Source: Carboxylicivirga fragile (GTDB lineage Bacteria > Bacteroidota > Bacteroidia > Bacteroidales > Marinilabiliaceae). Taken from it: a stretch of DNA of 64,000 nt. Below the pieces are notes generated by a model that saw only the letters and a list, made by a program, of their open reading frames with translations, was not told the origin of the DNA and ran no database searches. Within the stretch, counting starts at the first letter, position 1; each line of letters opens with the position of its first letter. This document shows positions 30,969 through 46,170 of the stretch, piece after piece. The stretch is taken from contig JAFMVD010000017.1 in the NCBI GenBank assembly GCA_025499625.1, forward strand, positions 1 through 64,000. Direction: 5' to 3'. The position numbers were made by a program, and so were the translations under genes.

Positions 30969-31477
30969 AAAGATGAGAAAAATCATCGATATAGGGTAAA
31001 AAATTAAAAGTCGTATGTTTTAGAACAGGATTGGTAATAATTGGGTATTTTATTTTGTGATAAATGAAAAATTATTCTTTAAAAATTAATATCACAGGGG
31101 TGGCGTGAGTAATAGTAGAAAAATATCATGAATAATTGTCGATCGTCTTTTCTATTTAACATCGGTTATGAAAAGGCTAATTTTTTAATGAAATTATTTG
31201 TGGTGTAACTCCCTCTTTATAGGTGTTTTAAGGTGGTGTTTGAAATATTTTTGGAAAAAACACAAAAAAATAGTGTTACGATTTATGACTTCTGGTATTA
31301 ACACCCGATTGCAATCTTTTACGCGTAAATTGATAATATATCTACACAACAGACCAGAAGAAAGCTTACCTAAGAGGTAAGGCGTTCGAATCTTTTAGAA
31401 GTTTTTACAAAGATTCAGCTCAAAGTGGCGAAACATTAAGTTCGGCATCTCCGATTCAATTAAAATCAACTCGAAGT
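30969..31477. other. Intergenic region with leader of the FeS fusion gene
   Basis: About 500 AT-rich bases between two divergent genes. On the plus strand a TAnnTTTG box lies at 31246-31253. From 31337 the reading frame of the downstream fusion gene is already open, but it has no ATG or GTG. A 60-codon frame at 31198-31380 in another phase has no recognisable product and is not called. No RNA structure was recognised. Confidence 0.4.
31246..31253 (+). promoter_or_regulatory. Candidate -7 box of the FeS fusion/chemoreceptor operon
   Basis: The sequence tatttttg matches TAnnTTTG and would give a leader of about 220 bases before the TTG at 31478. No convincing -33 box is seen. Confidence 0.28.
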
Positions 31478-33469
31478 TTGATAACTCGACGAACTACCTT
31501 GTTGCGTGAATCGTTTAAACCAGATGTGAATGTAATGGCCACATCTCTTTTGGTTCCTTCTGAGTTGGCATGGGCATTAAATTGTGTGCCGCTAAATTTA
31601 GAGATGTTTAGTAGTTTGCTTGCGTCGCACTCTAAAATAATTGATCTTTCTAACAAAGGAAGTTTAACTGCTCCGCGTTGTAGTTTTATTAATTCAGTAA
31701 AGGGAGCGCTTCTCGAAAATTTGATTCCTCGTCCCGATTTAATGGTTAGTTCATCGGCGTATTGTGAAGGAGTGAGTTATGTATTTGAAGATTTTCGTCA
31801 GGAATTTGGCACAGATCACTACCATATTGATTTACCAGTTTATACCGACGAGAATTCATATATAGACTTGGCGCAGCAAATGAAAAGTTTGTTTGGTCAA
31901 ATGGCTGCTAAGTTAGGGATGGATATCGCCGAAGCGCACGATAATTTCAGGAAAGTAATGTACCAAAGTACCATTGCGCGTAAGCAATTTATGGAATTGT
32001 GGCAGTTTAGGCATGAACATGGACCAGTAGATCTTGGTTTGGAGCCTCTTCACTGGCATATGCAGTTTCTGCCTATGTGGGGCGACGAGAAAGCGGCAGG
32101 TATTTGTGAACGATTAAAAAATGAATTTATAGAATATGCACAAAATCAAACGCTAGATGAAGATGCTGTACCAATTGCATTTTTTGGTTTGATACCATAC
32201 GGACGCACCGAAATGTGGAGTGTATTGAATGAAAATAAGGCTTACATGGCCTTTGAAGGCGTTAATTTCTTAGGTGACTTTGAGTTGTTAGATAGCACCA
32301 ATTTTGATGATTTCTCAATCGATGAGTTGTTTGAAAACCTTGCCAAGAACCTGATTAATGTTCCAATGCGTGGTGGGAATATTATTGAAAAATCTGAATT
32401 TTTCATGAAGGAAGCGAAGCAGATGGGTGCCAAAGGTATGATGATTATATCTCATGAGCACTGTCAGCTGTTGGCACCTCGACTTCATGAAATGGAAAAT
32501 GAAGCAACAAAAATTAATCTAAAGGTAGTTTCCCTTGGTGGTGACTGTATTCTCGGTATGCCAAAAGGGCCGACTAATTTCCGCTTGCGAACTTTTTTAT
32601 CATCTATTACAAATGTTGCAGTGAAGCAAACTGATTTTAAATCATTGTTGCCTATTAATGAAAACATGGTGGAGGCCGGTTATCGCTTAGGTGTTGATTT
32701 TGGAAGTGGTTTCAGTAAATTTATGTTGCTTGATGAAAAGCTTGATGTGATGAAAAGTGGAATTGTGTCATCAGGTATTGATTATCCAGGGTTGTTGAAT
32801 GATATTACTCGCAAATTGGCTTTGGATGGGCCCGTAAAACTTGCTGTGGCGGGTATTGGAAGTGATAATCCTGTATTTAAAAATTTGGTTCAAAAGCAAA
32901 CAACTGAGATAAATGCGCTAATTGGTTCCTGTCGTCAATTATTTAAACGACGCGATAATTTATTAGTAATAGATATAGGTACACAGGATGTAAAAATTTT
33001 ACATTTCAACAATATGGATGATGCACCCTGGATTAATACGAACAAAAGTTGCGGGGCAGGCACCGGAATGGTTTTGGTTCAAATATTAGAACGATGGAAG
33101 CAAACGATGCCAAATTTTACTTACGACACGCTGGATAAATTAGCATTGGAGGCTGAGGAGAGTGAAATTATTAATACAACCTGTGGGATTTTTGCCGTTA
33201 CCAATGTGGTTTCAGCTTTGGTACAAGCGTCTGAACGAAGACGTAGAGCCATATTACGAGGGTTATATGATTATGTAGCAACTCAGGCAATCAAATTATT
33301 ACCACCAGAATTACAAAATGGGTATGAAGTTTATCTTACTGGAGGAGTTGAAAGTCATCAAACCTTAAAAGAAGTATTTGTGCAAAGAGGGTTTAAGTTA
33401 ATTACACCCGAAAAAGATATACATCCACAATTTTTGGTTGCATTTGGAACAGCCTTATCAGTTCATTAA
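31478..33469 (+). CDS. Fused 2-hydroxyacyl-CoA dehydratase/double-cubane-type FeS component and its ATPase activator
   Basis: A protein of about 663 residues. The N-terminal part (about 1-385) is an HgdB/BcrC-like component, with cysteines likely to bind an FeS cluster at Cys68 ([12 protein letters not shown]), Cys96 ([12 protein letters not shown]) and Cys329 ([12 protein letters not shown]), and a closing GGDC. The C-terminal part (about 400-663) is an HgdC/BadF-type ASKHA ATPase: [22 protein letters not shown] and [11 protein letters not shown], with both interface-cluster cysteines Cys525 (SCGAGTG) and Cys569 (TTCGIFA). Normally these are separate proteins. The ATPase would drive low-potential electrons to the first domain. 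The start is TTG, the only usual start codon in reach. Substrate unknown; a chemoreceptor gene follows after 11 bases. Confidence 0.82.
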
Positions 33470-33480
33470 AAATTAGAATC

Positions 33481-34659
33481 ATGGATATTTTTACTTTAGG
33501 TATCATTTTAATTGTATTAGCGGGAGCTTTATGTTGGGTTTTTGTTTACATGGCTTTTAAAAAATCATTTGTACTATTGATTGGTACAGTGTTTTTAGGT
33601 GTGATTGACATGGTGGCATGCTTTGGCTTTGTGGTTGGTAACAAAGGGTTGATTCATTTAGCTTGGGCGGTGCCGATTGCGATTGTAGCCATCCTTTCTT
33701 CCTATTACATTTTGGCACGAAAGGTAAAGGTTCCTATCCAACATCTTACAGCATTATTACAAAAGATGAGTAATAAAGATTTGACATTAAATGTTGAAAA
33801 GCGATTCTTGAATGAGCAATATGAGATTAAAGATGTTGCGATTGCTGTTGATAAATTGGTGACTACAAATCGTGCTATGATGAAGCAGTTAGATGAAAAT
33901 TCTACTGTGCTTTTGAGCTCGAGTTCAAATATTAATGCTAGTTCTGGTAGTATAAGCTCGGGAGCTTCTGAACAAGCTAGTGGTATTGAAGAGATTTCCA
34001 CATCTGTTGAGGAAATGACGGCTAATATCATGACTAATTCAGAAAATGCTAATAAATCAAAAAACATTAGTAGTGATGCGCAAAAATCTTTAGATGTATC
34101 TTATAACAAGGTGGTTGATGCAGTTAGTTTAATGAAGAAAATTGATGAACACACTGTTTTGGTGAGTCAGATCGCTTCCCAAACCAATATACTAGCTCTT
34201 AATGCAGCTATTGAGGCTGCTAAGGCTGGAGATGCTGGAAGAGGTTTTGCAGTTGTTGCGAAAGAGGTTCGTTCATTGGCAGAACAATCTACTGTTGCGG
34301 CAAATCAAATTACTCAAATGACGCAGGAAGGTGTTGAGCAAGTTAATAATGTTCTCAAAGAGATTACAGAGTTGGTAAATCAAACCAAAAAATCATCTGC
34401 TTTAATACAGGAAGTGGCTGCAGCTTCAGATGAAATGAATATTGGCGCCAATCAAATTAACTCGGCTATTCAAGAGTTAAATGGTGTGGTGCAGGAGAAT
34501 GCAGCCTCTTCAGAGGAGTTAAGTGCCACTTCGGAGCAACTGTTGTCTACAGCCAAAAGCTTAAGTAATTTGGTTTCTGCTTACGAGTTTCACGAAACCC
34601 AAATTATTTCAATAAATAAAAAAAGTACGAAGAGAAAAATTAGAAGTAAAATTGCTTAA
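33481..34659 (+). CDS. Methyl-accepting chemotaxis-type receptor without a periplasmic sensor domain
   Basis: A 392-residue protein with three N-terminal membrane helices (about residues 3-25, 30-51 and 59-79), a short HAMP-like linker ([13 protein letters not shown]) and a long coiled coil. The signalling hairpin tip is intact (residues 231-270: [17 protein letters not shown] then [18 protein letters not shown]), so it should couple to CheW and CheA. It lacks an extracellular ligand domain and a CheR/CheB-docking tail. The signal is therefore likely membrane-borne or intracellular. It is co-transcribed with the FeS fusion ATPase, 11 bases upstream, and ends at a terminator. No other che genes lie in the window. 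Confidence 0.88.
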
Positions 34660-34679: not shown

Positions 34680-34717
34680 GAGCACTTGTAGCAACGGCTA
34701 TAGGTGCTCTTTTTTTG
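34680..34717 (+). terminator. Terminator of the FeS fusion/chemoreceptor operon
   Basis: The hairpin runs from gagcac to gtgctc with an inner tagc/gcta stem (34680-34709), followed by a run of T at 34710-34716. It closes the two-gene unit. Confidence 0.85.
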
Positions 34718-34847: not shown

Positions 34848-36017
34848 ATGTTAAACATTGCTCTTTTTGGTCCTCCAGGTGCTGGTAAAGGCACACAATC
34901 TGAATTTCTTATTAAGAAGTATAATTTGTTTTACATCTCCACCGGAGATATTCTTCGAAAAGAATTAAAAGAAGAAACCAAATTAGGGCTGGAAGCTAAG
35001 AGTATTATTGCCGAGGGTGGTTTAGTCTCCGATGAAATAATTGTTCAAATTATTGAGAAAACTATTAAGAGCAATCCGGATGTTCATGGCTTTTTATTTG
35101 ATGGTTTCCCAAGAACTTTTGTTCAGGCATATATTCTGGAGGGTTTAATGATTAAGTTGAACACTACTTTGGATAAGCTTATTAGTATTGAAGTGCCACA
35201 AGAGGAGTCGATTAAGCGCTTACTTGCTAGAGGCGAAACTTCCGGACGGATGGACGATAATGAAGAAGTGATTCGTAATCGTTTGAAAGAATATGATGAG
35301 AAAACTCTGCCTGTTCTTAATTTTTACAAAGAACGAGGTAACTACGAGGCAGTTGATGGTTTACGACCAATAAAAAAGGTAACCTCAGCTATTAAAAAGC
35401 ATGTTAATAATGTTTTGAGTAAGAAGCATTTGAATATAGTATTATTTGGTTACCCCGGATCGGGGCGCGGTTCTCTTGGACGTGCAATAGCAGAGAAATA
35501 CAAGTTGGAGTTTATTTCCACGGGTACTATGCTTGACGAGGAAATTGAAAAGAAAACAGAAATAGGAAAGCGTGTAAAAGAGCTTTATGAAAATGGTCAG
35601 TTGGTACCTGATGAGATTGTGATTCGACTAATTGAGAAAAAGATTGAGCAATCGAAAAATGCCAAAGGTTTTATATTTAAAGGTTATCCTCGAACCCTTG
35701 TTCAGTCGTATATACTAGATGGAATACTTAAGAAACACGATTCTTTCATTAATAAGATTATTGATTTAGATGTGGATACCCTTGAGCTGATTCGTCGCTT
35801 AAATCAGCGTAGTAAAACGGGAGAACGAATGCCTTATGATTCGAGCACCGAAAAAATTGTAAAACGCCTTCAGGAGCATAAAGATAAGACCTTACCTGTT
35901 ATTGAGAAGTATAAAGAAGTGCATGATGTGTCGGTTGTAGACGGTATGGCTTCGTTTGATGAAGTGTTTGGTCGCATTTCTAAAGAAATCGAAAGCAGTT
36001 TTAAATCCTTGGATTAG
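34848..36017 (+). CDS. Tandem adenylate kinase with a degenerate second domain
   Basis: A 389-residue protein made of two adenylate kinase domains in one chain. Domain 1 (residues 1-190) is intact: Walker A FGPPGAGKGTQ with Lys14, STGDILR, FDGFPRT with Asp85, and RMDD followed by NRLKEY, with the short lid form. Domain 2 (about 193-389) keeps the fold but has GYPGSGRGSLG with Arg207 at the Walker Lys, FKGYPRT with Lys278 replacing the Asp, and RMPY in place of RMDD. Domain 2 is therefore probably inactive or altered in specificity. Adenylate kinase balances ATP, ADP and AMP and is normally about 190-215 residues. The two halves probably arose by internal duplication. Confidence 0.9.
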   Translation: MLNIALFGPPGAGKGTQSEFLIKKYNLFYISTGDILRKELKEETKLGLEAKSIIAEGGLVSDEIIVQIIEKTIKSNPDVHGFLFDGFPRTFVQAYILEGLMIKLNTTLDKLISIEVPQEESIKRLLARGETSGRMDDNEEVIRNRLKEYDEKTLPVLNFYKERGNYEAVDGLRPIKKVTSAIKKHVNNVLSKKHLNIVLFGYPGSGRGSLGRAIAEKYKLEFISTGTMLDEEIEKKTEIGKRVKELYENGQLVPDEIVIRLIEKKIEQSKNAKGFIFKGYPRTLVQSYILDGILKKHDSFINKIIDLDVDTLELIRRLNQRSKTGERMPYDSSTEKIVKRLQEHKDKTLPVIEKYKEVHDVSVVDGMASFDEVFGRISKEIESSFKSLD

Positions 36018-45889: not shown

Positions 45890-45893
45890 AATG

Positions 45894-45967
45894 CGGTCTG
45901 GACGGGACTCGAACCCGCGACCTCCGGCGTGACAGGCCGGCATTCTAACCAACTGAACTACCAGACC
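45894..45967 (-). tRNA. tRNA-Asp (GTC), copy 3 in transcription order
   Basis: A 74-base cloverleaf on the minus strand: acceptor stem GGTCTGG/CCAGACC, discriminator G, anticodon loop CTGTCAC with anticodon GTC, and T arm GGGTTCGAGTCCC. CCA is not encoded. It is identical to the two copies that follow at higher coordinates. Confidence 0.97.
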
Positions 45968-45988
45968 CGGTAGTGATTCAAAAAAAAG

Positions 45989-46062
45989 CGGTCTGGACGG
46001 GACTCGAACCCGCGACCTCCGGCGTGACAGGCCGGCATTCTAACCAACTGAACTACCAGACC
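45989..46062 (-). tRNA. tRNA-Asp (GTC), copy 2
   Basis: Identical 74-base tRNA-Asp gene, 21 bases from its neighbour at 45894-45967. The anticodon GTC is read on the minus strand. The short A-rich spacer suggests processing from one transcript. Confidence 0.97.
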
Positions 46063-46096
46063 AGTTTTTGAATCTATATAATGAAACTAAACAATG

Positions 46097-46170
46097 CGGT
46101 CTGGACGGGACTCGAACCCGCGACCTCCGGCGTGACAGGCCGGCATTCTAACCAACTGAACTACCAGACC
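46097..46170 (-). tRNA. tRNA-Asp (GTC), copy 1
   Basis: Identical 74-base tRNA-Asp gene, first in transcription order, 34 bases before copy 2. The promoter should lie in the 260 non-coding bases 46171-46431, where I found no further RNA gene. Confidence 0.97.

Follow-up and report, generated by a model that had tools for sequence, protein, structure and literature searches.

Why does a cell place an iron–sulfur enzyme of the dehydratase type directly beside a chemotaxis receptor? The question is raised by two adjoining genes of Carboxylicivirga fragile (Bacteroidota; Bacteroidia; Bacteroidales; Marinilabiliaceae; GenBank assembly GCA_025499625.1), which lie in the first 64,000 nucleotides of the forward strand of contig JAFMVD010000017.1, the whole stretch of DNA analysed here and called the window below. 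The first gene encodes a single chain in which an HgdB/HadB-like (HGD-D) domain is followed by an HgdC-type ATPase, and the second a short methyl-accepting chemotaxis protein (MCP). A receptor of this subfamily adjoins the fusion in nearly every related locus where the neighbours can be seen, and the dependence is one-way: the fusion goes with the receptor, and the receptor needs no fusion. The reading we prefer, to which the sequence and structure-model comparisons lead us to give a probability of roughly 45%, is that the two genes would form a sensory module in which the iron–sulfur enzyme, fused to its electron-firing ATPase or archerase, serves as a cytoplasmic input to the chemoreceptor. 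The component parts are known; in the literature searched, which covered few subscription papers, we met no account of an HGD-D/ATPase fusion next to a chemoreceptor, and neither the fused order nor the conserved receptor pairing was found described.

A dehydratase-like protein fused to its ATPase, and the adjoining receptor

The features of the locus are given below. Residues are numbered from a TTG codon at 31478 (TTG numbering) or, where stated, from 31367.

31337..33469, + strand: HGD-D/ATPase fusion reading frame, stop to stop; conserved protein from about 31364
31553..32602, + strand: HGD-D domain (HgdB/HadB/BzdO-like), PF06050 match
31679..31681, + strand: codon of candidate cluster cysteine 1, Cys68 (TTG numbering), which is Cys105 from 31367
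31763..31765, + strand: codon of candidate cluster cysteine 2, Cys96, which is Cys133 from 31367; aligns with a HadB cysteine
32462..32464, + strand: codon of candidate cluster cysteine 3, Cys329, which is Cys366 from 31367
32687..33457, + strand: BcrAD_BadFG/HgdC-type ATPase domain, PF01869 match
33050..33052, + strand: codon of ATPase interface cysteine 1, Cys525 (TTG numbering)
33182..33184, + strand: codon of ATPase interface cysteine 2, Cys569 (TTG numbering)
33481..34659, + strand: short methyl-accepting chemotaxis receptor of 392 amino acids, MCPsignal match
33481..33771, + strand: three-helix membrane module of the receptor, with helices 3-25, 30-55 and 57-97 in the model; kept among linked receptors
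34039..34539, + strand: MCP signalling domain, PF00015 match
34680..34716, + strand: intrinsic terminator after the receptor, a 13-pair stem at 34680-34709 and then a T run

The first-pass annotation of this DNA had described an HgdB/BcrC-like domain with cluster-type cysteines fused to an HgdC-type ATPase, and family searches bear this out. Both domains lie in one frame, HGD-D at the N terminus (PF06050, residues 26-375 in TTG numbering, E 8e-26, 91.8 bits against a cut-off of 28.4) and the ATPase at the C terminus (PF01869, residues 404-660 in the same numbering, E 1e-13, 51.5 bits against 31.5); TIGR00241 scores the ATPase part at 68.5 bits, under its own cut-off of 125.4. Within its genome the fusion is the sole HGD-D protein above the cut-off (second place reaches 13.9 bits against 28.4), and among the four places matched by the ATPase family it scores far above the rest, one of which barely exceeds the cut-off. 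Comparison with the nearest ortholog (G018; G and L numbers are our handles) gives proportions of changed nonsynonymous (pN) and synonymous (pS) sites of 0.11 and 0.78, respectively. Since synonymous sites are saturated we claim only that pN is much smaller than pS and give no dN/dS; this purifying selection indicates that the fusion is a real gene. An AlphaFold2 model (mean pLDDT 74.7, 11 sequences) resembles HadB (3o3m_A) in its N-terminal half (target TM 0.78, probability 1.00) and HadI (4ehu_B) in its C-terminal half (target TM 0.76, probability 1.00), and DCCP and BzdNO chains are also among its leading fold matches.

The cysteines of the fusion are at positions 36, 68, 96, 210, 329, 357, 485, 525 and 569 (TTG numbering). 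Those of the HGD-D part that are kept out to the most distant alignment rows are Cys105, Cys133 and Cys366 (from 31367), each of which matches a cysteine in at least one of two aligned Azoarcus dehydratase-family subunits. All 11 full-length fusions, the window's included, have these three cysteines, a P-x-E glutamate, both phosphate motifs and both interface cysteines; this count leaves out a twelfth sequence, the degenerate copy in G044, from which most of these residues are gone. The interface cysteines, Cys525 and Cys569, had been picked out on first reading, and they do fall on the CAAGTG and STC motifs in an alignment with HgdC (1hux). In HadB-type subunits each cluster has three cysteine ligands, one iron being open in the alpha subunit, and in the homodimeric activases each monomer supplies two cysteines (both from PMC11574389, in part), while the BzdO cluster is held by Cys95, Cys128 and Cys380 with Glu65 and His131 nearby (PMC11971306, in part). 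The P-x-E motif suggests that Glu66 of the fusion may correspond to BzdO Glu65, and there is no histidine at +3 after Cys133 in the window sequence. Judged by these residues the fusion looks like a three-cysteine, single-cluster protein and not a double-cubane one. A double-cubane identity, to which the first-pass annotation had pointed by comparison, was rejected on the ground that three HGD-D cysteines are conserved where six are needed, DCCP itself being compared without a residue-level alignment; the double cubane of BzdN has six cysteine ligands (PMC11971306, in part).

The receptor gene begins 11 bases after the fusion gene and matches PF00015 (MCPsignal) at E 4e-32, with 111.8 bits against a cut-off of 34.6. 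In the model its third helix (57-97) continues into the HAMP region, which Pfam HAMP recognises at E 0.16 in the window receptor, at 5e-8 in that of G900 and at 5e-7 in that of G1179. A Pfam scan gave no match to a PAS domain in the window receptor, and the loops between the three helices are too short for an external or periplasmic sensor domain. The earlier description of a three-helix receptor without external sensor thus stands, as does that of a terminator closing the pair. Terminator-like sites in the region number 4, against a mean of 2.7 in shuffles, and a scan for sigma-70-like promoters, which covers the sigma-70 consensus and not Bacteroidota promoters, gave 5 sites against 13.5 in shuffles. 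MCPsignal is matched at 18 places in the genome, one a fragment. Another short three-helix receptor (L066, contig 65 of the same genome, 574-2571) is convergent with a MOSC-domain protein and is perhaps another receptor paired with a redox-related protein.

Linkage and co-occurrence of the pair

The fusion is a rare marine-bacterial protein, found only within the window's order, bar one probably chimeric contig (L043). Profile searches covered the window's phylum and that of the L043 bin. They matched 1 of 395 genomes in the sample of the window's phylum (the window itself; E to 1e-40), 3 of 344 in the order sample, window included, and 4 of 392 in the phylum of the L043 bin, three of these covering the ATPase part only; by family, the counts were 2 of 23 in that of G900, 1 of 7 in that of G1179 and 1 of 20 in that of G466. 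A contig scan with two short peptide patterns found 10 fusion loci, and since G900 and G1203 carry neither pattern, divergent members may have been missed by it. Plasmid records gave 6 matches, all to the ATPase part and none covering 80%. Near relatives in the same genus include Carboxylicivirga linearis (Marinilabiliales at NCBI), which, with Labilibacter sediminis, is one of the named isolates in which the pair is present.

Neighbours can be seen at the window locus, at those of G018, G008, G007, G049, G047, G034, G017, G014, G044, G900, G1179 and G1203, and at the L043 fragment; G466 was not scored, its contig ending inside the fusion gene. The receptor subfamily adjoins the fusion in 13 of these 14 loci, the window counted (in G047 the pair is split over two contigs), and in nine of the ten genomic contexts that they represent: the window with G018, G008 and G007; G049 with G047; and G044, G034, G017, G014, G900, G1203, G1179 and L043 singly. 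The linkage to a chemoreceptor is thus conserved; its absence from related species, which the first-pass annotation had named as grounds for refuting its idea, is not what these loci show. Order and orientation vary, the receptor being downstream, upstream or convergent. Where both genes lie on the same strand with the fusion first, the gap is 5-110 bases; in G034 the two converge, 57 bases apart, and in G900 the receptor lies upstream of the fusion at 154 bases. From the 18 MCPsignal matches and an assumed total of about 4,500 genes, we estimate that adjacency by chance would arise at less than about 1% for each locus. The flanks of the ten contexts, of up to about 11 kb, were compared all against all, and no other gene directly adjoined the pair in two or more of them.

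Co-occurrence was scored in a family sample of 71 genomes, with the receptor subfamily defined by a three-helix profile E below 1e-30, a threshold set in the gap between 5e-34 and 3e-18. Twenty-five genomes match the fusion at E up to 0.001, most in the ATPase part only; the fusion proper is present in 10 of the 71, one copy being degenerate, and the receptor subfamily in 15. The receptor occurs in all 10 fusion genomes as against 5 of the 61 without the fusion (hypergeometric P 6.5e-9, uncorrected for kinship).

One candidate for a wider range was rejected. L043, from the metagenome-assembled genome HGW-Tenericutes-5, carries the pair, but its fusion lacks what precedes about residue 209, and the hutU gene that faces it, which has no Pfam match before its Rossmann-like domain, is cut at the same point (about 10000). 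The L043 fusion groups with that of G1203, from the window's order (support 100/99); the GC content of the contig, 0.33 against 0.31-0.35 in seven other contigs of the bin, speaks neither way. The contig is probably chimeric, or else carries a deletion junction, and for this reason is not evidence of spread to another phylum.

Other neighbours were seen at particular loci. At those of G034 and G044 the pair has another, larger MCP gene no more than about 4 kb away (L042 3039-5054; L063 5562-7451). In four genomes of the genus Labilibacter the receptor is followed by a protein of 142-144 amino acids (L036 13360-13788; L114 6397-6822; L115 9020-9451; L064 4685-5110), of which the L036 copy has no Pfam match. 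CoA-related genes were seen only at individual copies: the G034 locus has a succinyl-CoA-ligase-like gene nearby, and the degenerate copy of G044 has a CoA-transferase-like and an enoyl-CoA-hydratase-like one, all named by a look at the sequence and not by family search. Elsewhere in the window, a gene at 34848-36017 has two tandem adenylate kinase domains (two PF00406 stretches) and is 88% and 94% identical to its counterparts in two Carboxylicivirga relatives; a doubled adk seems unusual. Three tandem tRNA-Asp genes at 45893-46170 share one anticodon.

What the pair might do

In the mechanism we propose, the fusion would be a single-chain, probably homodimeric relative of 2-hydroxyacyl-CoA dehydratase together with its archerase. 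The C-terminal ATPase dimer would hold one [4Fe-4S] cluster between its subunits and, on ATP hydrolysis, would fire low-potential electrons into a [4Fe-4S] cluster that three cysteines of the N-terminal part would hold, leaving one iron site open. The state of the fusion in the cytoplasm (the redox state of its cluster, a bound ligand or substrate, ATP or ADP as its nucleotide) would then be an accessory input to the three-helix receptor, presumably direct rather than by way of a product, and the receptor would relay this via HAMP and the MCP tip to CheA/CheW. A more specific version is tentative, and we would bet against it: a nitrogenase-like, low-potential, archerase-driven iron–sulfur protein would have been recruited as the cytoplasmic sensor of a chemosensory array, the cell spending ATP on a super-reduced cluster, and the receptor, having no sensor of its own, would read when oxygen, an electron acceptor or a small molecule re-oxidises that cluster. 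DCCP, a dehydratase-like archerase system outside the CoA pathways, carries out reactions of unclear physiological role (PMC11971306, in part), and a stable tie to one receptor subfamily would give such an archerase system a job, sensing. If true, bacterial chemotaxis would gain an input of a new class. The two-gene pair is compact, and close relatives that have the receptor and not the fusion provide natural controls.

Several observations weigh against such a module. Five genomes, G019, G048, G050, G042 (with two copies) and G016, keep the receptor and lack the fusion, so the receptor works on its own; around their receptor loci, where G016 offers no more than a 3.8 kb contig, the sole fusion-like match was one by chance (E 0.78, 27% over 56 residues). 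The surroundings in G019 are the same as the window's, so that there the fusion alone is missing, and on the receptor tree, whose deep branches are long and weak, the receptor-only rows stand in several places, a scatter that fits repeated loss of the fusion. At the looser threshold of 0.001, three-helix receptors occur in 36 of the 71 genomes, most of which lack the fusion. In G044 the receptor is intact beside a remnant of the fusion (L063 8644-9693, 349 amino acids), an open frame with large in-frame losses that keeps the Cys105 position and has lost Cys133, Cys366 and both interface cysteines; its comparison with G049 (pN 0.27, pS 0.74) gives no date. In G014 the fusion is intact and stands without an adjacent receptor; the closest receptor of that genome is on another contig and falls on a branch other than the one that holds the receptor of its sister G017. 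The wider flanks of two contexts do share a few genes, such as a dipeptidase-like one (L038/L039, 51% identity), and distant members of large families also recur farther out.

The window copy itself adds a further difficulty. The first-pass annotation had started the fusion gene at the TTG at 31478, and this is not the true start, because seven family orthologs share the frame and conserved residues upstream of it; the frame begins 37-46 codons upstream of 31478. The window has no ATG, GTG or TTG between 31337 and 31477, and the three relatives aligned at the start region carry an ATG there that the window (31330-31345) does not. Either translation would start at an AUC at 31340, or there is a 1-base indel, real or an assembly error. 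With no clear start codon the window copy might be poorly expressed, and could be losing expression though its residues are intact. The metabolism-sensing chemotaxis unit of the first-pass annotation is supported in part: its pairing is conserved, and several cases speak against a strict two-part form (5 of 71 genomes with the receptor only, a ruined fusion in G044, no adjoining receptor in G014).

The alternative that survives best, though we think it unlikely, is that the fusion works in metabolism, as a reductase or dehydratase of a small molecule, and that the receptor senses its product or the redox change it brings about, without direct contact. Catalytic-type residues are conserved in the fusion, a self-contained reaction is plausible because the fusion is the only HGD-D protein of its genome above the cut-off, and a receptor without external domain must read the membrane or the cytoplasm. 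However, no pathway or transport gene directly adjoins the pair in two or more contexts, and no CoA-pathway enzyme was found among the ten genes scanned between 23.9 and 42.2 kb of the window, in agreement with the earlier remark that CoA-substrate genes are absent nearby. Nor can the substrate be guessed, because the motif GLEPLHWH, near-constant in the fusion family (PLQWH in G1203), is replaced in the aligned stretch of HadB.

Co-inheritance of the two genes, by co-transfer or as neighbours for expression only and without functional coupling, is a poorer explanation, which we think somewhat less likely still. It would account for the patchy distribution, the differing contexts and the survival of the receptor without the fusion. 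Fusion and receptor distances are mirrored (r 0.94 over 11 genomes, with no background gene compared; G044, G047 and fragments are excluded, and G014 is represented by a receptor from outside the partner lineage), and this may only mirror species kinship. Co-transcription alone, however, does not explain the reversed order in G900 or the convergent genes in G034, and within the family the fusion is never present without the subfamily receptor in the same genome (10 of 10). That the receptor or array instead regulates or localises the enzyme, for example at the membrane, is very improbable: the receptor is kept where the enzyme is lost or decayed, as expected of a base component, but the fusion has no obvious anchor of its own, its peak hydropathy being only 1.7 over 19 residues, and we know of no precedent for a receptor array regulating or localising such an enzyme.

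Comparison with known systems

The nearest relatives of the fusion are the dehydratases HgdAB/HadBC with their activators HgdC/HadI, with which it shares both domains, the predicted fold, the three-cysteine site, the two interface cysteines and the ATPase motifs. It differs in being one chain, with HGD-D first and the ATPase last; in having a single HGD-D type, one above the cut-off in the genome, where HgdAB/HadBC have an alpha/beta pair; and in lying beside a chemoreceptor, with no CoA-pathway neighbours at the window. The DCCP:DCCP-R system likewise joins a dehydratase-like protein to an archerase (fold matches 7yzm_A, 6eno and 7yyl), and a homodimer is expected in systems of this type, with which we take YjiM/YjiL to belong; unlike it, the fusion has three conserved HGD-D cysteines and not six, is fused, and adjoins a receptor. 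The class I benzoyl-CoA reductases (BzdNOPQ, MbdONPQ) resemble it in the ATPase (9gai_D) and the HGD-D fold (8s02, 9gai), and the BzdO site of Cys95, Cys128 and Cys380 resembles its three cysteines (PMC11971306, in part), but these enzymes have separate subunits, an aromatic-CoA substrate and one [8Fe-9S] subunit, of which the fusion gives no sign.

On the sensory side, the window receptor has a HAMP-like region and an MCP signalling domain as do Aer-like chemoreceptors, which take their input from cytoplasmic redox modules. It differs from them in its three membrane helices and the lack of a PAS match, and in that the candidate redox module would be a separate protein, the fusion encoded beside it.

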